A stretch of 64,000 nt of DNA, taken from NCBI RefSeq assembly GCF_022410515.1, contig NZ_JACSDI010000003.1:1-64000 (forward strand), read 5' to 3'. The translations under genes were made by a program, and so were the position numbers. Positions within the stretch are counted from its first letter, which is position 1. Each line of letters starts with the position of its first letter. The stretch is from Shewanella cutis. GTDB taxonomy: Bacteria; Pseudomonadota; Gammaproteobacteria; Enterobacterales; Shewanellaceae. Below, in pieces: positions 2,556 to 55,037 of the stretch. Below the pieces are notes generated by a model. The model searched no databases, was not told the origin of the DNA, and worked only from the letters and a program-made list of their open reading frames with translations.

Positions 2556-3338
2556 ATGAAATGTCCTTCGGACTCCCTGTCCATTTTACGTTGTAATCAA
2601 ATATTGGATGCGGCTGAAAAGCTCATTGAGTCACAAGGTGTTGTGTCTTTTAAATTTTCTCAGCTTGCACATGAGGTGGGGTGCTCTACGGGTACCTTAT
2701 ATAAATTTTTTGAACGTAAAGAAGATGTGTTGGTTTGTTTATTTTTGAGAAGTGCTACCTCAAATCACTTACCGATATTTATCCATAAAAATCCAGAGTT
2801 AACCGCACAAGAAAAAGTGCTGTTACCCATTTTATTTACCTTTGAAACCATTAAGCGCAGTAGCAGCTTTTTTACGCTGCGTTCGGTTTCTGTCAATACC
2901 ATGGTATGGAAACTGGCCAGTGACGAAAAAGTTGAGCGGTTTAAAAAACGCATTAATGCTTTTTGGAGTTGGTTTACTGATTCACTGCATTTAGCTGTTG
3001 AAAATGGCGAATTAGTGGCAACCCCATTACAAATTAAAGAATTGGTCCAAGGGATAACGTTTTATTTAACAGGGGCTTTGACACAATTTGAAAGTCAACT
3101 CATCGCCCCTGAGTTTTTGTCTGATCGTCGTGAAACCTGTTATCGGCATTTGGCAAACCTGATGGAGCGATACGAGTGGAAAAAGCCTTTAACCCTTGCA
3201 CTGTTTGATTCGTTAGAGGCCAGAACCATCAAGTTTTTTGATCAGCATTATCGTGACCATATGACCTGCTCGGCTTGTTGCGCGCTGTCAAATACCGACA
3301 CTAAGGCATTATCTCCCTGTACTCGTCATTGTGGTTAG
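2556..3338 (+). CDS. TetR-type transcriptional regulator with a cysteine-rich C-terminal tail
   Basis: The 260-residue protein opens with a TetR-type N-terminal helix-turn-helix: residues about 13-58 run ILDAAEKLIESQG, then FSQLAHEVGCSTGTLYKFF, then KEDVL. The rest is helical and would be the ligand-binding and dimer domain. It is divergent from the reductase operon, so local control of that operon is likely. The last 24 residues are unusual: five cysteines and a His cluster as C-S-A-C-C and C-T-R-H-C, with further Cys residues at 3 and 13. This could be a metal or redox sensing tail, which is inference. It is longer than a typical TetR regulator (about 200 residues). Confidence 0.85.
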   Translation: MKCPSDSLSILRCNQILDAAEKLIESQGVVSFKFSQLAHEVGCSTGTLYKFFERKEDVLVCLFLRSATSNHLPIFIHKNPELTAQEKVLLPILFTFETIKRSSSFFTLRSVSVNTMVWKLASDEKVERFKKRINAFWSWFTDSLHLAVENGELVATPLQIKELVQGITFYLTGALTQFESQLIAPEFLSDRRETCYRHLANLMERYEWKKPLTLALFDSLEARTIKFFDQHYRDHMTCSACCALSNTDTKALSPCTRHCG

Positions 3339-3369
3339 GGCGTCCTGCAATTCTGGGTTTATTTCACCC

Positions 3370-3391
3370 GCAGTGAGCGTTGTCTCACTGC
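3370..3391. terminator. Hairpin between convergent genes
   Basis: An 8-bp perfect stem (GCAGTGAG/CTCACTGC) with a 6-nt loop lies between the 3' ends of the TetR-type gene and the convergent response regulator. There is no strong T-run on either side, so it may act only weakly as a bidirectional terminator or protect transcript ends. Confidence 0.45.
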
Positions 3392-3427
3392 AACTAAAAA
3401 TTAGGCATATTAAACATAAACTTAATT

Positions 3428-4027
3428 TCAAAGTTTATGATTGGCTAGCAACCAAGCAAGTTCGGCGGCGTTACTCACTTGCATTTTTTGCATGACTTTT
3501 TGCCTGTGTAACTCAATGGTTCGCTGTGCGATATCCAGTTCAGCCGCGATGACTTTATTCATTTTCCCTGCCAGTATGCCTTCCATGACCTGTGTTTCAC
3601 GCTGGCTAAGGGTGGCGAGTCGATTGGCGATGTCTAATTGCAAATTTTGTTGATGCCATTTTTGCTCAGTATGTTGTTGGGCTTGGGTCAACAGCTGAAA
3701 TAGTTTCTCGCCATCTACCGGTTTTTCAAGAAAATTGAGTGCTCCCTGTTGGATGCAGTCTACGGCCATTGCGATGGTGCCGTGGCCAGTGAGCATGATG
3801 ACGCTGATTGCACTTTGTGCTTGATTTAAATGGTTTAACAGTGCCACGCCATCCATGCCTGGCATTTTGATGTCCAGCAGTAGTACGGCGGGTTGCTTAA
3901 TATCGACACTCTTTAAAAATGCATCCGCAGCGTTAAAGCCTTTACAGTTAAGCCCCATCCCTTCAAGCATCCAACTTAAGGAATCCAGTACATCTTGATC
4001 ATCATCTACAAGGTAAAGCGGTGTCAT
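3428..4027 (-). CDS. Response regulator, FixJ/TtrR type (receiver + LuxR HTH)
   Basis: This 199-residue protein has an N-terminal receiver domain (acidic VDDD at 7-10, phospho-acceptor Asp52 in LLLDIKMPGMDG, Lys in LEKPVD) and a C-terminal LuxR-type helix-turn-helix (about 135-195, LSQRETQVMEGILAGKMNK). This is the FixJ/TtrR/DctR architecture. It starts 9 bp after the upstream sensor kinase stop, so the two form one operon and a cognate pair. Its position among periplasmic reductases suggests that it activates one or more of them when the acceptor is present. The target is not visible from sequence. Confidence 0.92.
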   Translation of the reverse strand: MTPLYLVDDDQDVLDSLSWMLEGMGLNCKGFNAADAFLKSVDIKQPAVLLLDIKMPGMDGVALLNHLNQAQSAISVIMLTGHGTIAMAVDCIQQGALNFLEKPVDGEKLFQLLTQAQQHTEQKWHQQNLQLDIANRLATLSQRETQVMEGILAGKMNKVIAAELDIAQRTIELHRQKVMQKMQVSNAAELAWLLANHKL

Positions 4028-4036
4028 TTTGCTCTC

Positions 4037-5806
4037 CTAAGCTGGCTGCGAATTGAGTGGCAGGGTGACTTTAATGGTTAATCCTGGATTGGCGTGCTGT
4101 GCGTCAATTTTGCCTTTGTGCTCTTCAATAATACGCTTGCAGATCACCATGCCTAACCCAAGCCCTTGAGGTTTGGAGGTTTCAAAGGGGAAGAATAATC
4201 GCTCTAACGCGCTATCGCTAAGGCCGCAACCAGCATCGGTGATGTGAATATAGATGTTTTCGCCCATGGTACCCGTGTCAATAACCAGTGATTTGTGGGG
4301 GACATTTTCCATCGCATCCAGTGCATTACGTAATAAATTCACCAGCACTTGCTGCATCAAACTGGCGTCGGCAAATACGGGTAAGGTTTGTAAGCTGACC
4401 TTAGGGCTGAGTTTGAGCCGCTGAAACTCTGGTTGCATTAAGGTCAAGGTTTCTTCTATCACTGTGCGTAAATCGCAGTGCTGGTAATCACTGGTTTGTT
4501 GGCAAAATGTGCGCAATCGATGGATAGTAGTTTGTGCTCTATCGACCTGGTTTATAACCTTATTGAGCGCAGTGGCAAGCTCGGTTTGGGTGTTATCTAA
4601 ACGATATATACAACCTTGGGTGAGATAACGAATACCAGCTAGGGGTTGCTTAAGCTCATGGGCAATGCCTGAGGCCATTTCGCCCGTCAGTAGCACCCGC
4701 TGGGCTCGATAAAACTGTTGTTGTTGCTCGAGTAAGATTTTTTGGGTGTATTGATGATGGGTTATTTCGGCGGATAAGGCTTGGGTGCGTTTAACCACTA
4801 AGCGCTTAACCCTTAAGTGATGAATATAGCCCAGTAACAAGGCAAAGATGAAGCTTGCGCCCCAAGGCAAGGCATTGTGCAGTAATCGCTGCCAGTTAGT
4901 GACAAAGGGCCATTGTTCTAATTGCTTTAACAGCTCAAATACTGGGCTATCGTCTACTGGGGCTGACCAATATTGATATCTTCCTTGCTGAGCCGCTGGA
5001 TTGTCTGGGGTAATTTGCAGCAGGCTGGCGACCACTTGTGTCGCGAGTTTATGATCCGTATGGCCTAATTTGGTTAAGGCGTAGCCGGGGTATAATTGAG
5101 TCGATACTTCGCAGGCAAAATCTGGATGCGGTTGTTTAAGCACGACTTTTAATTTATTGGCTGGAACCAGCCCTTTATCTACTGCGTTCTCTAAAACGCA
5201 GCTAGGTAATACTGCAATATCAGCTTCACCCGATAACAGCATTTGCAACAGTTTTTGCTGTGGAAAACCAATAAAGCGCAGCTTGGGGATATCGCGGTAG
5301 GCATTGATGCCTTTGGTTGCCATTGTCGCTGCAAAAATTTGAAATCCACCAAAGGCTTGTGGGTCGCTTGATACTAACTTTTCATCTTTAAGTTGGTCCC
5401 ATTGGCTCAGGTTGTTGTCAATCCGTGTGACGATGGCAGAGCCTATGCTCTGTTCTGGCGAACGAACTCGATTATGGACTAGGGTGAGTAAGTGACTGGT
5501 GCCATAGTTTTTTTTAAATGCGACCGTGGTGAGGGCATTGCCAATTAAAAAGTCGATACTTTGCTTAGTTAATGCCTCATCTAATTGAGATGGCGTTAAT
5601 GGCGTGAGGTGTACAGGACGATGCAGCTGCTGACTCAGCCAATCAGCGGTTGGGTGCCAATTAGCCATGACTTCATCGGGCTCATTAAATGCCATGATAC
5701 CAATCCGCACCGGATCACTTGCAGGGGGAGCAGCGGCAATGGCTGGCAGATTGAAGCCAATAAAAAAGGCCAGGATAAACATTAATCGAGTGAAGAATTG
5801 ATACAT
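4037..5806 (-). CDS. TtrS-like sensor histidine kinase with a PhnD-type periplasmic domain
   Basis: This 589-residue membrane kinase has a signal or first TM segment at 1-25. A periplasmic phosphonate-binding-like (PhnD/TtrS) sensor domain spans about 30-290, with cysteines at 203 and 232 that could pair. One TM segment lies at about 312-330. A HisKA domain carries His383 in GIAHELKQPLAG, followed by a GHKL ATPase with NALDAM and GLGLGMVICKRI. It lacks its own receiver. The layout matches the tetrathionate sensor TtrS and relatives that monitor respiratory acceptors or products, but no tetrathionate reductase genes are nearby. The actual ligand is therefore probably linked to the neighbouring flavin reductases. 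It forms an operon with the response regulator 9 bp downstream. Confidence 0.88.
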   Translation of the reverse strand: MYQFFTRLMFILAFFIGFNLPAIAAAPPASDPVRIGIMAFNEPDEVMANWHPTADWLSQQLHRPVHLTPLTPSQLDEALTKQSIDFLIGNALTTVAFKKNYGTSHLLTLVHNRVRSPEQSIGSAIVTRIDNNLSQWDQLKDEKLVSSDPQAFGGFQIFAATMATKGINAYRDIPKLRFIGFPQQKLLQMLLSGEADIAVLPSCVLENAVDKGLVPANKLKVVLKQPHPDFACEVSTQLYPGYALTKLGHTDHKLATQVVASLLQITPDNPAAQQGRYQYWSAPVDDSPVFELLKQLEQWPFVTNWQRLLHNALPWGASFIFALLLGYIHHLRVKRLVVKRTQALSAEITHHQYTQKILLEQQQQFYRAQRVLLTGEMASGIAHELKQPLAGIRYLTQGCIYRLDNTQTELATALNKVINQVDRAQTTIHRLRTFCQQTSDYQHCDLRTVIEETLTLMQPEFQRLKLSPKVSLQTLPVFADASLMQQVLVNLLRNALDAMENVPHKSLVIDTGTMGENIYIHITDAGCGLSDSALERLFFPFETSKPQGLGLGMVICKRIIEEHKGKIDAQHANPGLTIKVTLPLNSQPA

Positions 5807-5895
5807 GGTTTAAACCTGACAGGGCGATTTCATTAAATGGTTAACACACAAGACCTAACAGCTCGGCAGTAAAGAGGCTACGCGATGCTGAGCTG

Positions 5896-5916
5896 ATGGC
5901 CAACAATATTGGCCAT
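5896..5916. promoter_or_regulatory. Perfect 8-bp inverted repeat between the apbE and sensor kinase genes
   Basis: ATGGCCAA and TTGGCCAT flank a 5-nt spacer (CAATA). It sits 90 bp upstream of the kinase start and about 50 bp downstream of the apbE stop, both on the minus strand. It could be an operator of the kinase operon or a hairpin at the end of the apbE transcript. There is no clear T-run on the minus strand. Confidence 0.4.
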
Positions 5917-5966
5917 ATTATGCCTATTAGTGATTGCTGATATATTGAGCCGCTTCACACATTAGC

Positions 5967-22654: not shown

Positions 22655-23446
22655 TTGGGATCACTCGTTTGTGTGGGTACGGGGTTACAGCTCGCGGGGC
22701 AAATTAGCGTGTTAAGTCGTAGCTATATTGAACATGCCGATATTGTGTTTTCACTCTTACCCGACGGTTTCTCGCAGCGTTGGTTGACGAAGCTCAACCC
22801 CAATGTGATCAATTTGCAGCAGTTTTATGCGCAAAATGGGGAAGTTAAAAATCGCCGAGACACCTACGAGCAAATGGTCAATGCCATTCTCGATGCGGTG
22901 AGAGCGGGTAAAAAAACTGTGTGTGCACTCTATGGTCATCCGGGCGTGTTTGCCTGTGTATCCCATATGGCGATAACTCGCGCCAAGGCCGAAGGGTTTT
23001 CGGCCAAGATGGAGCCGGGGATTTCGGCCGAAGCTTGCCTGTGGGCCGATTTAGGGATTGATCCTGGCAACTCAGGGAATCAAAGCTTTGAAGCCAGCCA
23101 GTTTATGTTTTTCAACCATGTGCCCGATCCCACTACCCACTTATTACTCTGGCAAATCGCGATTGCGGGCGAACATACCTTAACCCAATTTCATACCTCG
23201 AGTGATAGGTTGCAGATCCTCGTGGAGCAGTTGAACCAATGGTATCCCCTCGACCATGAGGTGGTCATCTACGAAGCGGCCAATTTGCCAATCCAAGCCC
23301 CGCGTATTGAGCGTTTACCTTTAGCGAATTTACCCCAAGCACACTTAACACCGATTAGTACGTTGTTAATTCCGCCAGCAAAAAAGCTGGAGTACAACTA
23401 TGCTATTTTGGCTAAGTTAGGGATCGGTCCTGAAGATTTGGGCTAA
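22655..23446 (+). CDS. sonM: Split-borosin alpha-N-methyltransferase, SonM-like
   Basis: The TTG start at 22655 has a strong AAGGAG site 6 bp upstream. The 263-residue protein has the TP-methylase fold: VGTGLQLAGQ near the N-terminus for SAM, then ALYGHPGVFA at 91-100 and AKMEPGISAEACLWADLGIDPG. Unlike precorrin or diphthine methylases it is followed 45 bp later by a 70-residue partner. This matches the SonM/SonA system of S. oneidensis, where backbone amides of the precursor are methylated in trans. Tyr58, Arg67, Tyr71 and Tyr93 fall where the borosin catalytic residues (OphMA Tyr66, Arg72, Tyr76, Tyr98) are expected, by pattern. The precursor, not a small molecule, is the substrate. Confidence 0.93.
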   Translation: MGSLVCVGTGLQLAGQISVLSRSYIEHADIVFSLLPDGFSQRWLTKLNPNVINLQQFYAQNGEVKNRRDTYEQMVNAILDAVRAGKKTVCALYGHPGVFACVSHMAITRAKAEGFSAKMEPGISAEACLWADLGIDPGNSGNQSFEASQFMFFNHVPDPTTHLLLWQIAIAGEHTLTQFHTSSDRLQILVEQLNQWYPLDHEVVIYEAANLPIQAPRIERLPLANLPQAHLTPISTLLIPPAKKLEYNYAILAKLGIGPEDLG

Positions 23447-23491
23447 ATTGAAGTGTGATATTGAATCATTATTAACAATTAAGGAGAAAAC

Positions 23492-23704
23492 ATGTCTGCA
23501 TTATCGGATTTTTTTACCCAGTTAGGCCAAGATGCGCAGTTAATGGAAGACTATAAACAGAATCCTGAGGCGGTGATGCGTGCCCATGGGTTAACTGATG
23601 AAGAAATTAACGCTGTAATGACTGGGGATATGGAAAAGCTAAAAGTCTTGAATGGCGACCAAAATTATCAAACCTTTGTTTTAGTTAATCACGGTAATAA
23701 TTAA
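23492..23704 (+). CDS. sonA: Borosin precursor peptide, SonA-like
   Basis: A 70-residue protein with an excellent AAGGAG site. Residues about 1-52 form a helical domain (SDFFTQLGQDAQLMEDY, NPEAVMRAHGLTDEEINAVMTGD) of the LigA-like type that serves as borosin binding domain. The C-terminal tail (QTFVLVNHGNN, 60-70) is the core. In S. oneidensis SonA two backbone N-methylations occur near residues 63 and 65; here those are Val63 and Val65 within TFVLV. Such short proteins are often mis-annotated as LigAB subunits. No follower protease or exporter gene is adjacent, so the mature product is unknown. Confidence 0.92.
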   Translation: MSALSDFFTQLGQDAQLMEDYKQNPEAVMRAHGLTDEEINAVMTGDMEKLKVLNGDQNYQTFVLVNHGNN

Positions 23705-23710
23705 CTTATC

Positions 23711-25498
23711 TTGAAACGGTTGCGTAGTGCCCTATTAGCCATCTTTGCTTTGTGTTCTACAGCGTTGATGGCTAACTCTCTCGATTTTGATCAGGCACTC
23801 AATGAGCTTGATGTATTACTGCAATCTGATCTTAGTACTGCGCAGAAAAAACTGGCCGAATATGAGAAAGAATTCAGCAAATTAACTTCAGTGCAACAAG
23901 GTCGACTGAGGATAGATAGAGCGATAGGTTATTTTTTCACTGGTGAATATGCCAAAGCGTTAGACGATCTGCATCAGGCCGAAACCTTAATCACAAGTTC
24001 TGAATTATTAGCATCGGTTTATAGCTATAAAGCCACGGTATATATAGGGATGCGCGACTATGATAAAGCCTTATCGGCTGTCGCCAAAGCATTAGCGCTA
24101 GTGGTAAATATCGATGATATTACGATTAAACGTCACTCCTATCTAAGAATTGCCAATATTTATTCCGAAATGGATGCTTATAGCGATATGGGCCTCTATG
24201 CCAATAAGGTGTTACAACTCGCTCAGGAAACCGATGTTCGCGATATTTGCCATGCCAAATTGCTGCAGGCGATTTACTTGCTCGGTGTAAAAAATCCCGA
24301 CACCTTCGATGCCTTCGAAGATAGCCGTCAATATTGTGATGCGAAGCAATTTCCCCTTTTAGCAACGATGTCGATGAAAGGCAAAGGGATGGTTTTGCAG
24401 GAGCGAGGTGACTATTTAGGCGCGAGAGCGATTTTGCTATTAGCGTTAAAAGGGTATGAAGCTTTTCAATTTCAATTAGAAATCAGCCATGTGCATGCTC
24501 TACTTGCCGAAAATTACTTTGCAACGGGTGAACTGGTGCAAGCAAAAAGTCACGCTGTTAAGGTGCTCACGTTTCCCGATGATAATAGTTATATCGAACA
24601 TAAGCATATTGCCTACAAAGTGTTTGCCGAGTTGATGGCTGCGGATAAACAATTTGAACAAGCCTATGAATACTCCAGAAAAGAGCAGCATTATAATCAA
24701 CTGATTTTTGATGAGTCGAGGATGAAAACCCTTGCTTATCAGGCGGCTAAGTTTAATGCCGATGAGCAGGCGCGTGAAATCAACTTGCTGAATAAAGAGC
24801 GCGAACTTTACATCGCCCAGCAAATGGTAAAAGAGCGGGAATACACTAATATGTTGATGTTTATCACCATATTAGTGGGTGGACTGTTCTTCCTTGCAAT
24901 TTTGTTAGTGGTGGGCCATTTGCAAAAGCGGCGTTTTATGCGGATGGCCAAAATGGATGCGCTGACGGGGGTGCTTAACCGTGGTGCGGGGCAAGATCTT
25001 GGCGAAAACCTGTTTGTGCAAGTGGCCGCCCGTGGTGAGGATTTCTGCGTTATCTTATTCGATTTAGATCATTTTAAACGGATTAATGACTCCTACGGCC
25101 ATGGCACAGGTGACTGGGCACTTAAAAAAGTCGTTGAGGTGTTAAAACCTCATATTCGTAATGGCGATGTATTTGCTCGGATTGGCGGTGAAGAATTTGC
25201 GTTGTTCTTGCCTTATGCCAATGAGGCTAAGGGGCTGGACGTTGCCGAACAATGCCGTAGCCGAATTGAAGCGATTGATACTCATCTGTCGGGACATAAA
25301 TTTACCATCACCGCCAGTTTTGGGGTCAGTGGTATGACAAAAGATGACTTAAGCTTGGATCCACTTTTGCACCGTGCTGATATGGCGCTCTACACCGCAA
25401 AATCGAATGGTCGTAACTGCGTATCTTGTTACCAGGATGCCTTAAAGTGCGATAAGCGAGCCACCAATCCCACAAGCGAGTTAGCAAGACAGCCCTAA
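23711..25498 (+). CDS. Diguanylate cyclase with periplasmic TPR-like sensor and GGDEF domain
   Basis: The 595-residue protein starts at TTG 23711, only 6 bp after the sonA stop, with a weak ribosome site, suggesting translational coupling. A signal peptide (about 1-22) precedes an alpha-helical TPR-like region (about 25-360), then a TM segment (MLMFITILVGGLFFLAILLVV) and a GGDEF domain with active site GGEEF. The inhibitory I-site Arg-Asn-Gly-Asp lies five residues before it. It should make c-di-GMP in response to a periplasmic signal. Its linkage to a RiPP precursor is unusual and suggests that the borosin locus is tied to lifestyle control (inference). Confidence 0.9.
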   Translation: MKRLRSALLAIFALCSTALMANSLDFDQALNELDVLLQSDLSTAQKKLAEYEKEFSKLTSVQQGRLRIDRAIGYFFTGEYAKALDDLHQAETLITSSELLASVYSYKATVYIGMRDYDKALSAVAKALALVVNIDDITIKRHSYLRIANIYSEMDAYSDMGLYANKVLQLAQETDVRDICHAKLLQAIYLLGVKNPDTFDAFEDSRQYCDAKQFPLLATMSMKGKGMVLQERGDYLGARAILLLALKGYEAFQFQLEISHVHALLAENYFATGELVQAKSHAVKVLTFPDDNSYIEHKHIAYKVFAELMAADKQFEQAYEYSRKEQHYNQLIFDESRMKTLAYQAAKFNADEQAREINLLNKERELYIAQQMVKEREYTNMLMFITILVGGLFFLAILLVVGHLQKRRFMRMAKMDALTGVLNRGAGQDLGENLFVQVAARGEDFCVILFDLDHFKRINDSYGHGTGDWALKKVVEVLKPHIRNGDVFARIGGEEFALFLPYANEAKGLDVAEQCRSRIEAIDTHLSGHKFTITASFGVSGMTKDDLSLDPLLHRADMALYTAKSNGRNCVSCYQDALKCDKRATNPTSELARQP

Positions 25499-51898: not shown

Positions 51899-52007
51899 GT
51901 TAGCCCTTGTAATTAGAGCATGATTTGTAAGCAATTCTGCTACACTTGTGGGAAAAAGTTATCGTAAGATAATTCTCTCACTCATTTCTGGAGTTGCTTC
52001 CACATTC

Positions 52008-55000
52008 ATGGATAAAAGCATTTTCTTACCTTTAGTGCAAAATGCGGCTTTATTGCTGGCGCTGGTATTTTTGTATGATGCGATTCCTAAAAAGCATCAG
52101 CGGCAGTATTTTTTACTCTGGCGGCTGGGAATTGGCGTACTCATAGGTGGCATTGGTGTCGCGATTATGAGTACACCATGGATGTATGAACCTGGGATTA
52201 TTTTCGATACCCGTTCAGTGCTTTTATGTGTTTCAGGTTTATTTTTTGGCGGTTTGCCAACGGCAATAGCCGTGGTTATCACCGCGCTTTACCGGCTGAG
52301 TATTGGTGGTGTTGCCATGTGGGTTGGGGTTGGAGTGATTATTACCTCTGGCCTTATTGGTGTGATATGGCGCCATTATCGAAAGGCTCACCTAGCGAGT
52401 ATTTCGGGCACAGAAGTGATTAGTTTTGCTTTCTTAGTGCATTTAGTCATGTTGTCATGGTTTTTTCTATTGCCTGGCCAACATGTAGTACCTGTTCTGT
52501 CTAAAATCACCTTACCGATATTATTGATTTATCCCCTCGCAACATGGTTGTTGAGTCGTTTACTGTCCCGCCGCTTTGAATTGGAGCGAGATGAACAAAT
52601 CCGTTTGCAAGATGATTTCTTGTTCCGTAGCCAATTTAACATCGGCAATATTGGAATTGCGATAACGGGTATTGATCAAAAGTGGATAAAGGTGAATCCA
52701 AGGCTGTGTCAGATGCTGAAGTACTCAGAGGATGAGTTGTTGCATATGACCTGGAAGCAGCTTACTCACCCAGATGATCTTGACGCTGATGTTGCCAAAT
52801 TTGAGCAGATGCTTGCTGGTAATATTGATAATTATGAATTAGATAAACGCTTTATCGCTAAGGATGGTTCACTGGTTTACACCCATATGACGGTGGCCTG
52901 TAAGCGTACGAATCATCAGGTATTACTGGTTATTTCGGGGTATTTGGATGTAACAGCTCAAACCCTTGCCGATAGAGAAGTACTTGCCAGTCGTGAACAG
53001 CTCGAATTGGTATTAAGCAGTAGTGATCTTGGGGTATGGGACTGGGATATTCGCAATGATCATATTGAGCGCAATACTCGCAGCGCCGATATTTTAGGAT
53101 GTGATATCGACATGCTTAATGCCAATAGTCGCCAGTGGATGGACTCGATTGTTGCAGAAGATCGACCTCAAGTGCTGCAATCAATTGAAGCCCACATTCG
53201 CGGAGAAACGCCGCAGCATAGGATGGAATACCGCTTAAAAACCCTCAACCGTGATGTTCGCTGGATATTAGATACGGGCAAGGTGGTGAGTCGCGATGCC
53301 AACAATAATGCCCTAAGAATGTGTGGTACTTATACCGATATCACTGAAGCTAAGTTGATTGAAGAGTCCTTAAAACTCTCGGCATTGGTGTATGACAATA
53401 GCTCAGAAGCCATGAGCGTGCTCGATGAAAACGGTGTGATTATTACCGTAAACGCTGCCTTTACCGAAATCACAGGCTATAGCGAGTCTGAAATCCGTGG
53501 GCAGCATATTCGTATGATGTATTGCGACCTCAATGGCCATGAGTTTTATCAGCAGATGAATGATGATATCCGTGATAAAGGTCAGTGGCAGGGGGAGATG
53601 CGGCAACGGCGCAGAAACAATGAAGAATATGTAATTTGGTTAACCATCAACACCATCAAAGATAAAGACGGTTTACCGTACCGCCGTGTTGCACTCTTTT
53701 CCAATATTACCGATAAAAAACAAAGTGAACATTTAATCTGGAAGCAGGCAAACTACGATACCTTGACTGGCTTACCTAACCGGCGCATGTTGCTCGAATA
53801 TTTAAGTGCTGAAATTAAAAATGCCGACCGTAACCGTACTCACTTTGCCTTGATGTTTCTTGATCTCGATTACTTTAAAGAAGTCAACGATACCTTAGGT
53901 CATGCTATGGGGGATCAATTACTGATAGAAACCGCTATTCGCCTAAAATCCAGCGTGCGAGAGGCGGATGTGGTTGCGCGACTTGGCGGCGATGAATTTA
54001 CCGTTGTGCTCAGTTCAATGGCGGATCATAAGGGGATTGAGCGCGTTGCGGAACATATTTTAAGGCGTATTGCCGAGCCCTATTACTTAGGTGAAGAAAC
54101 CGCCTATATCAGTGCGAGCATTGGGATCACGCTTTATCCGGACGATTCGACCAGCATTGAGGGTTTGCTAAAACATGCAGATCAAGCCATGTATGCTGCA
54201 AAAGATCAGGGGCGTAATCGTTTCAACTACTTTACCCCTTCGATGCAGGAATACGCAAAATATCGCATGCGATTAATCCACGATCTCCGCCAAGCCGTGC
54301 TTAACAAAGAATTTGAGCTGCACTATCAACCTATAGTGACCATGGCGACGGGTGAAGTGCTTAAGGCTGAAGCCTTATTACGCTGGTTCCATCCGGAGCG
54401 GGGCTCGGTGTCGCCGGCGGAGTTTATTCCCGTCGCTGAAGATACTGGGCTAATTGTTGAGATTGGTAATTGGGTATTTGAACAGGCCGCGCGCCAAAGT
54501 GCCCAGTGGCGTAAGACCTTGGGCGTTGAAATTCAGATCAGTGTGAACAAATCGCCCATTCAGTTCCGTGATGAGGGGGCATTGTTACACAATTGGCTCG
54601 AGTTACTGCAACAGCTTGATGTTACGGGCGCGGGCGTTTGCGTCGAAATCACCGAGGGCTTATTGCTCGATGCCAGCATGGGGGTGACCGAAAAACTGTT
54701 AGCCTACAGGGATGCGGGTGTACAAGTCTCTTTAGATGATTTTGGTACTGGCTATTCATCACTGGCGTATTTGAAAAAATTCGATATCGATTATTTAAAA
54801 ATCGATCAATCATTTACTCGTAATATTGATACGGATGAAAACGATCACACCCTGTGTGAAGCCATTATTGTGATGGCCCATAAATTGGGCATGAAAGTCA
54901 TCGCAGAAGGGGTTGAGACCGAGGCACAGCGTCAAGTGTTACTCGACGCAGGCTGCGATTATGGTCAAGGTTACTTATTTTCAAAGCCGGTGAACGCCAG

Positions 55001-55037
55001 TGAGTTTGCGAACAAGTATTTAGTGAAAGATATTTAG
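52008..55037 (+). CDS. 5TM (LytS-type) / PAS / GGDEF / EAL signalling protein
   Basis: The start at 52008 gives 1009 residues; a GTG at 51948 is an alternative. The N-terminal about 200 residues form a multi-pass 5TM-5TMR_LYT sensor. Three PAS or PAC units follow (about 205-330, 335-460 and 465-590), then a GGDEF domain with GGDEF intact and an I-site Arg-Glu-Ala-Asp five residues before it. The EAL domain has AEALLRW, DDFGTGYSSL and IAEGVETEAQ. Both activities look intact, so it could make or break c-di-GMP depending on signals. It lies directly downstream of glgA, 109 bp away on the same strand. Confidence 0.92.
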   Translation: MDKSIFLPLVQNAALLLALVFLYDAIPKKHQRQYFLLWRLGIGVLIGGIGVAIMSTPWMYEPGIIFDTRSVLLCVSGLFFGGLPTAIAVVITALYRLSIGGVAMWVGVGVIITSGLIGVIWRHYRKAHLASISGTEVISFAFLVHLVMLSWFFLLPGQHVVPVLSKITLPILLIYPLATWLLSRLLSRRFELERDEQIRLQDDFLFRSQFNIGNIGIAITGIDQKWIKVNPRLCQMLKYSEDELLHMTWKQLTHPDDLDADVAKFEQMLAGNIDNYELDKRFIAKDGSLVYTHMTVACKRTNHQVLLVISGYLDVTAQTLADREVLASREQLELVLSSSDLGVWDWDIRNDHIERNTRSADILGCDIDMLNANSRQWMDSIVAEDRPQVLQSIEAHIRGETPQHRMEYRLKTLNRDVRWILDTGKVVSRDANNNALRMCGTYTDITEAKLIEESLKLSALVYDNSSEAMSVLDENGVIITVNAAFTEITGYSESEIRGQHIRMMYCDLNGHEFYQQMNDDIRDKGQWQGEMRQRRRNNEEYVIWLTINTIKDKDGLPYRRVALFSNITDKKQSEHLIWKQANYDTLTGLPNRRMLLEYLSAEIKNADRNRTHFALMFLDLDYFKEVNDTLGHAMGDQLLIETAIRLKSSVREADVVARLGGDEFTVVLSSMADHKGIERVAEHILRRIAEPYYLGEETAYISASIGITLYPDDSTSIEGLLKHADQAMYAAKDQGRNRFNYFTPSMQEYAKYRMRLIHDLRQAVLNKEFELHYQPIVTMATGEVLKAEALLRWFHPERGSVSPAEFIPVAEDTGLIVEIGNWVFEQAARQSAQWRKTLGVEIQISVNKSPIQFRDEGALLHNWLELLQQLDVTGAGVCVEITEGLLLDASMGVTEKLLAYRDAGVQVSLDDFGTGYSSLAYLKKFDIDYLKIDQSFTRNIDTDENDHTLCEAIIVMAHKLGMKVIAEGVETEAQRQVLLDAGCDYGQGYLFSKPVNASEFANKYLVKDI

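Follow-up and report, generated by a model that had tools for sequence, protein, structure and literature searches.

In the Rap-Phr and NprR-NprX systems a receptor gene lies next to a small peptide gene, and RRNPP receptors are cytoplasmic and act on re-imported peptide. ComQXP and agr are pherotype loci, in which the peptide modification is isoprenylation or a thiolactone. The closest described relative of the locus analysed here is the split borosin pair SonM/SonA of Shewanella oneidensis MR-1. In the parts of the 2021 description on which we draw, SonM methylates SonA in a leader-guided manner, at Leu63 and Ile65, and Tyr58, Arg67, Tyr71, and Tyr93 have catalytic roles (Miller et al. 2021, PMC8429565). 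None of the split borosins in those parts is tied to a final natural product, and they do not mention the TPR sensor gene; the terms GGDEF, TPR, tetratricopeptide, and cyclase are absent from the main text. Borosin and diguanylate cyclase occur together in none of the open-access papers searched, which include neither Imani et al. 2022 nor Lee et al. 2024. Among open-access papers pairing borosin with biofilm or quorum sensing, none concerns split borosin function as far as titles and the starts of abstracts indicate.

The window (the whole stretch of Shewanella cutis DNA that we analysed, 64,000 nucleotides) carries an orthologous pair followed by a third gene. The SonM/SonA pair is known as a split borosin; what is added here is a TPR sensor as the third gene of the cassette, whose parts are as follows.

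22655 to 23446, + strand: sonM, type IV split borosin backbone alpha-N-methyltransferase (7ltc_A match, TP_methylase)
23492 to 23659, + strand: sonA leader, borosin binding domain, codons 1-56 (nearly identical to MR-1; conserved between allelic types)
23660 to 23701, + strand: sonA core, codons 57-70, of the NYQTFVLVNHGNN type (N-type; SonA alignment, 4 fixed SonA differences here)
23711 to 25498, + strand: TPR sensor diguanylate cyclase, 595 aa, putative SonA-peptide receptor (Pfam, linkage to sonM, model)
23711 to 23779, + strand: N-terminal hydrophobic (signal-like) segment, residues 1-23 (hydropathy, sequence)
23780 to 24640, + strand: predicted TPR superhelix, residues 24-310, which switches with the core (42 of 44 fixed differences; N clade 100/100; model)
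24641 to 24850, + strand: predicted long helix or coiled coil, residues 311-380, common to both types (model; 0 fixed differences)
24851 to 24922, + strand: predicted membrane helix, residues 381-404 (sequence, hydropathy)
24923 to 25435, + strand: GGDEF (GGEEF) diguanylate cyclase domain, residues 405-575 (Pfam; GGEEF at 492-496)

The sonM open reading frame (ORF; 263 aa, TTG start, 22655-23446) and the sonA ORF (70 aa, ATG start, 23492-23704) each have an AAGGAG site upstream, which confirms a sequence-only reading that had described both. That reading had also called the pair a split borosin of the SonM/SonA type, and database matches agree. Specifically, the 263-aa protein aligns with S. 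oneidensis SonM (PDB 7ltc_A) from residue 1 to residue 263 (E 6.8e-178) and differs from it by only two substitutions, at residues 141 and 231; the 70-aa peptide matches PDB 7ltc_B (SonA) over residues 1-69 at E 1.2e-36. Pfam TP_methylase scores 74.5 bits on SonM. Because only residues 141 and 231 differ, the catalytic residues that had been picked out from the letters, Tyr58, Arg67, Tyr71, and Tyr93, lie inside a stretch identical to the MR-1 enzyme. As in split (type IV) borosins, methyltransferase and precursor are on separate ORFs, the precursor comprises a borosin binding domain leader and a C-terminal core, and all four active-site residues are present. By sequence, the pair is an ortholog of the solved split borosin SonM/SonA and already known as such. 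Precorrin and diphthine methylases had been named as competing identities for SonM; a precorrin or similar methylase was rejected, with NCBIfam YabN (37.8 bits, cut-off 525) and cobI (22.3, cut-off 163) far below their cut-offs next to the SonM match. The SonA search also returned TAL-effector entries, which we take to be repeat artefacts, as no stretch passes alone. A PHROGs search gave no family for SonM or SonA, and each has a single match in its own genome (4.86 Mb, 50 contigs).

The SonA leader is nearly identical to residues 1-56 of MR-1 SonA, and the core differs: it reads TFVLVNHGNN here, and the compared stretch is NYQTFVLVNHGN versus SYQSYLVISHGN in the MR-1 structure. The MR-1 core is of the S-type and that of the window of the N-type, as defined below. 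Alignment to 7ltc_B places Val63 and Val65 opposite MR-1 Leu63 and Ile65, in line with the earlier expectation of valines rather than the Leu/Ile of S. oneidensis, and makes them the putative methylation positions of this core. The same reading had set the pair in a housekeeping context without a linked protease or exporter. Directly beside the pair we likewise see no gene for a protease or exporter; the neighbouring ORFs presumably encode SmpB, RatA, RatB, BamE, a KefB-like transporter, and a TonB-dependent receptor. The conserved third gene (TPR-GGDEF) had been overlooked. Orthologs of the neighbouring ORFs were found in other genomes. Promoter and terminator scans gave fewer sites than in shuffles.

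The third gene starts 6 bases past the sonA stop codon and encodes 595 residues, which begin with a hydrophobic segment and continue through TPR repeats, a long helix, and a membrane helix to a GGDEF domain (Pfam: GGDEF 135.8 bits, TPR_12 31 bits). The GGEEF motif at 492-496 is intact in the window sensor and nearly invariant among 79 aligned sensors, and the protein is a predicted diguanylate cyclase with an intact active-site motif. By a home-made hydropathy threshold for a signal-like segment or membrane helix, the N-terminal segment lies above threshold in 84 of 86 sensors and the membrane helix in 85. With a signal-like segment before it and a membrane helix after it, the TPR part is predicted to be periplasmic. 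Structure alignments used 79 of the 86 sensors (L100, L102, L154, L164, L166, L170, and L172 were left out); in these Cys180 is invariant and Cys209 conserved in at least 90% (codons 24248-24250 and 24335-24337), and the two residues would suit a possible periplasmic disulfide. The TPR part has no match besides itself in its own genome down to E 0.001; GGDEF has 52 matches there.

A model of the whole sensor has a pLDDT of 88.4 and makes the long helix visible; the TPR domain alone (residues 24-345) reaches 94.9. In structure alignments of the TPR model, the top 22 places are taken by structures of LGN/Pins/Gpsm2, Rap, and NprR (Z 23.4-25.6, about 300 residues), with the one exception of APPBP2 with a bound degron (Z 23.8). 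Two other Rap entries score lower (Z 19.6-19.9), and Foldseek gives the same families. The model fits a peptide-binding superhelix, which is no proof since the TPR fold is common and LGN scores as high as Rap. A sequence search of solved structures gave four weak matches, with no RRNPP receptor among them.

The sensor accompanies sonM throughout the genus. A TPR-GGDEF gene lies beside sonM, after sonA, at 59 of 59 Shewanella loci, a set from which six named loci repeating G genomes were left out and in which L034, L102, L113, and L136 (split sensor ORF) and L131 (contig end) are counted as having the sensor. The split, at L034:7056-8847 and likewise in the other three, is either a frameshift or an assembly error. 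Among 60 genomes of the same genus, all 53 with SonM have a TPR match (E 3e-11 or better) and the seven without SonM have none better than 4e-4; only KefB relatives could be located in the seven Shewanella genomes lacking SonM. One locus (L098:583-4395) has the order M-A-M'-A-sensor, in which M' is a shortened methyltransferase ORF of 200 aa and the two precursors have different cores.

Beyond these orthologs, a further 39 sonM homologs cover the SonM2 paralogs of Shewanella as well as other families. A TPR sensor lies no more than 1.5 kb away at 38 of these loci, 31 of them detected by single-sequence search and seven by profile (L137, L138, L140, L163, L168, L171, and L173). The sole locus without one, L160, has a repeated precursor core and another neighbour. 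There (3003-5951, minus strand), a SonM homolog accompanies a precursor ORF with about nine DAAIIKGYA-like repeats, and the ORF that follows resembles an HD-GYP protein by eye. Three SonM2 loci have two precursors ahead of one sensor (L148:1521-2218; L151:1588-2301; L156, minus strand). Several loci carry a second TPR-GGDEF gene (L109, L120, L181, L198, and L201). Searches at order, class, and phylum level sampled 394, 369, and 398 genomes; a TPR sensor is nearby in 33 of 40 further loci, which were hand-picked from the search matches to span many genera and are not all matches. Among these, L186 repeats L044, and the sensor of L184 is on the other strand. The seven loci without a TPR sensor (L176-L180, L183, and L193) are 30-42% identical to SonM, as are eight that have one (L187, L188, L190, L206, L207, and L211-L213), so identity to SonM alone cannot separate loci with and without a sensor.

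Both gene order and output domain vary. M-A-sensor is the usual order, and A-sensor-M occurs at L137, L138, L154, L166, L170, L175, L188-L190, and L202. Pfam HisKA and HATPase_c are found next to the TPR repeats at L140, L163, L168, L171, L172, and L173; a kinase profile adds L175, L200, L204, L206, L207, and L209, and the L164 sensor is of the kinase type by eye. TPR proteins in which no output domain is visible are encoded at L194:6189-8369, L211:6011-7117, and L213:6005-7186. L194 has two TPR proteins, neither with a membrane helix near its C-terminus, and those of L211 and L213 have a membrane helix at the end. Profile comparison shows homology between the TPR parts of the kinase sensors and those of the cyclase sensors (probability 99.9). 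What stays with the borosin pair through these changes is therefore the TPR module. At L171 (3675-9294) the borosin-kinase cassette sits, by eye, between ruvC/ruvA-like and ruvB-like genes.

Within the S. oneidensis clade the SonA core and the TPR domain switch together between two allelic types. We compared 16 loci of this clade, with S. salipaludis for comparison. N-type cores (..F[VLI]LVNHGNN) occur in the window, ANA-3, G015, G024, G039, S. oncorhynchi, and S. profunda; S-type cores (..YL[VI]IS..) occur in S. decolorationis, S. xiamenensis, the CG12 MAG, HN-41, G042, S. hafniensis, S. morhuae, S. glacialipiscicola, and G036. TPR identity tracks the core type, at 72-99% within N, 65-96% within S, and 44-52% between them. 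For example, S. oncorhynchi (N) and S. hafniensis (S) are 97% identical in SonM and 99% in GGDEF versus 51% in TPR, and S. decolorationis (S) is 99% identical to the window in SonM and 48% in TPR. In two N/S pairs followed by sliding DNA identity, the value lies mostly at 90-99% across sonM, drops to about 50% from the junction of sonA leader and core through the TPR end, and returns to about 90-99% across coil and GGDEF. Fixed N-S differences in the sensor number 42 in TPR residues 24-310, 2 in the signal segment, and 0 in residues 311-575; SonA has 4, all in the core, and SonM 0 in 271 columns. Within the TPR, N-S differences are distributed evenly among the helices, and a variable groove on one face was not seen.

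SonM and GGDEF vary with the genomes and not with the core type. In the TPR tree the N group is a clade (support 100/100) with one type change. The same group, which was defined from the cores (SonM and TPR identities being known before the AU tests), is rejected in these tests by SonM DNA (p-AU 0.0006) and by coil+GGDEF DNA (p-AU 1.2e-7; 16 of 17 rows, with the frameshifted L034 left out), each requiring four type changes. As a control we took the sensor region (51948-53600) of another GGDEF protein encoded in the window. Its identity across 9 genomes is 78-92% and orders them much like SonM, which the TPR region (48-95%) does not. Generally faster change of diguanylate cyclase sensor domains was rejected as an explanation, since the control region tracks genomes and not core type. 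The sensor-region search for that large protein (51948-55037) gives an in-match stop codon in 5 of 9 relatives.

Tandem sonA genes are present in S. decolorationis (L032:6837-7352) and S. morhuae (L039:6837-7354), where the core of copy 1 is N-like and its tail extended, and copy 2 has an S core adjoining the S-type sensor. S. xiamenensis and S. glacialipiscicola have a single sonA that combines a copy-1-like start with an S core, as if by deletion between copies. Allele replacement may pass via such a tandem stage. At loci with two precursors, the one adjacent to the sensor was used in core comparisons.

Covariation of core and TPR extends across the genus. Over the 59 loci core and TPR distances correlate at r 0.78, and the partial Mantel r is 0.54 with SonM, GGDEF, leader, and coil held constant (maximum 0.17 in 1999 permutations). 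Partial correlations are -0.06 for core-GGDEF and -0.02 for core-SonM; 0.33 remains for leader-TPR and 0.14 for core-coil. At SonM2 paralog loci the partial core-TPR r is 0.33 (p 0.01; 17 of 22 loci, as the remaining five lack the core motif). Seven loci (L096, L097, L100, L105, L109, L120, and L124) carry a K-[HYN]-[IV] core motif and have the lowest TPR scores against the window, with SonM still 67-77% identical. As in pherotype loci, putative ligand and sensor domain vary jointly, and enzyme and output do not.

Overall, this analysis shows a conserved triad, a variable output, and matched core and TPR alleles, and genome context and covariation indicate a role in signalling and offer a candidate receptor. 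We consider it quite probable that the adjacent, predicted periplasmic TPR protein is a receptor whose ligand is the methylated SonA core, and that sonM, sonA, and the sensor gene form a pherotype-like signalling cassette. Counting for this ligand-receptor reading are the near-constant presence of a TPR sensor beside sonM, the joint switch of core and TPR in the S. oneidensis clade, the genus-wide partial correlation of the two with its recurrence at SonM2 loci, a TPR link that outlasts changes of gene order and output domain and a TPR model that matches the peptide-binding superhelices of LGN, Rap, and NprR best. Counting against it are the remaining leader-TPR and core-coil partial correlations, the even spread of N-S differences over the TPR helices with no single face favoured, the lack of a linked exporter or protease and of a SonA signal sequence, the equal model scores of LGN and Rap for a common fold, and the sensor-less loci (7 of 40 in the wider set, plus L160).

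Two of the alternatives address the covariation itself. In one, which we regard as improbable, the methylated peptide would inhibit rivals and the TPR protein would be an immunity or self-recognition partner. In toxin-immunity pairs, too, the alleles of a small secreted product typically match those of the membrane protein encoded next to it. Core and TPR would coevolve in this way, and antagonism fits the linkage and covariation results equally well; the proteins of L194, L211, and L213, in which no output is seen, would fit immunity. Most loci, however, have a partner with an intact diguanylate cyclase or histidine kinase, a signalling output that sets it apart from plain immunity proteins. 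It is also quite unlikely that the TPR-GGDEF protein senses something else and is exchanged or diversified for its own reasons, with the SonA core following passively in the same recombination block. Core and TPR are physically adjacent, and the conserved leader and coil are natural crossover sites, so block exchange could give covariation without binding; physical linkage alone could yield part of the core-TPR signal, and the leader-TPR partial correlation agrees with such a passive exchange. Chance linkage nevertheless fails to explain why the TPR module is kept across gene orders, paralogous loci, and swapped outputs, and the control sensor region tracks genomes. That SonM and SonA make a secondary metabolite of other use, with the downstream gene a regulator or mere neighbour, is highly improbable: the 2021 description, in the parts drawn on, does end at SonM-SonA with the final natural product unnamed (PMC8429565), but such a pair does not predict an outer sensor domain that tracks the core while the cyclase domain does not.

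Under the ligand-receptor reading, SonM would bind the SonA leader and methylate two core backbone amides, as we infer from MR-1, and the leader would be cut off. The short methylated peptide would get to the periplasm or medium by an unlinked route. This route is the main gap in the model, as SonA has neither a signal sequence nor a linked exporter; passive escape is possible because N-methylation affects membrane permeability (abstract of PMC8429565). The peptide would bind the TPR superhelix of the neighbouring membrane sensor, and the long helix would relay the signal to the cytoplasmic diguanylate cyclase, changing c-di-GMP. Core and TPR would be matched ligand and receptor alleles exchanged jointly, with enzyme, leader, coil, and output staying common. 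Other lineages would have kept enzyme, precursor, and TPR sensor, with a histidine kinase output or none seen. More broadly, it is probable that SonA-type split borosins are proteobacterial peptide pheromones, backbone-N-methylated RiPPs with a dedicated periplasmic TPR receptor and interchangeable outputs (diguanylate cyclase, histidine kinase, or none), and that in Shewanella core and TPR alleles (pherotypes) are swapped as a block flanked by a shared methyltransferase and a shared cyclase.

A third gene with a peptide-matched outer part suggests a role as bacterial signal for this orphan peptide and indicates which protein may receive it. Should that protein prove to be the receptor, the role of SonA could be tested directly in the standard laboratory strain MR-1, including by a specificity swap. 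The cassette would then be a Gram-negative counterpart of pherotype signalling, in which a RiPP ligand feeds c-di-GMP, and more than 100 predicted ligand-receptor pairs would be available for specificity work.

Compared with SonM/SonA of MR-1 (PMC8429565), the window has an orthologous enzyme and precursor, with the same leader, catalytic residues, and aligned methylation positions, and differs in its N-type core, the core of MR-1 being S-type. Like Rap-Phr and NprR-NprX, it places a receptor gene, here a candidate one, beside a small peptide gene, and the modelled TPR superhelix is similar to those of Rap and NprR (best entries Z 23.5-25.1, about 300 residues), although sequence identity to the sensor TPR is only 12-16%. 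Unlike the cytoplasmic RRNPP receptors, the sensor has a GGDEF or kinase output; a signal-like segment and a membrane helix are predicted in it, which would place its TPR part in the periplasm, and its candidate peptide is a RiPP with a modifying enzyme. The locus resembles ComQXP and agr in that a single cassette groups a modifying enzyme with a precursor and a membrane sensor, and in that core and sensor domain are jointly polymorphic beside a conserved output domain. It differs from them in its Gram-negative host, putative backbone N-methylation, TPR sensor, and predicted diguanylate cyclase output.
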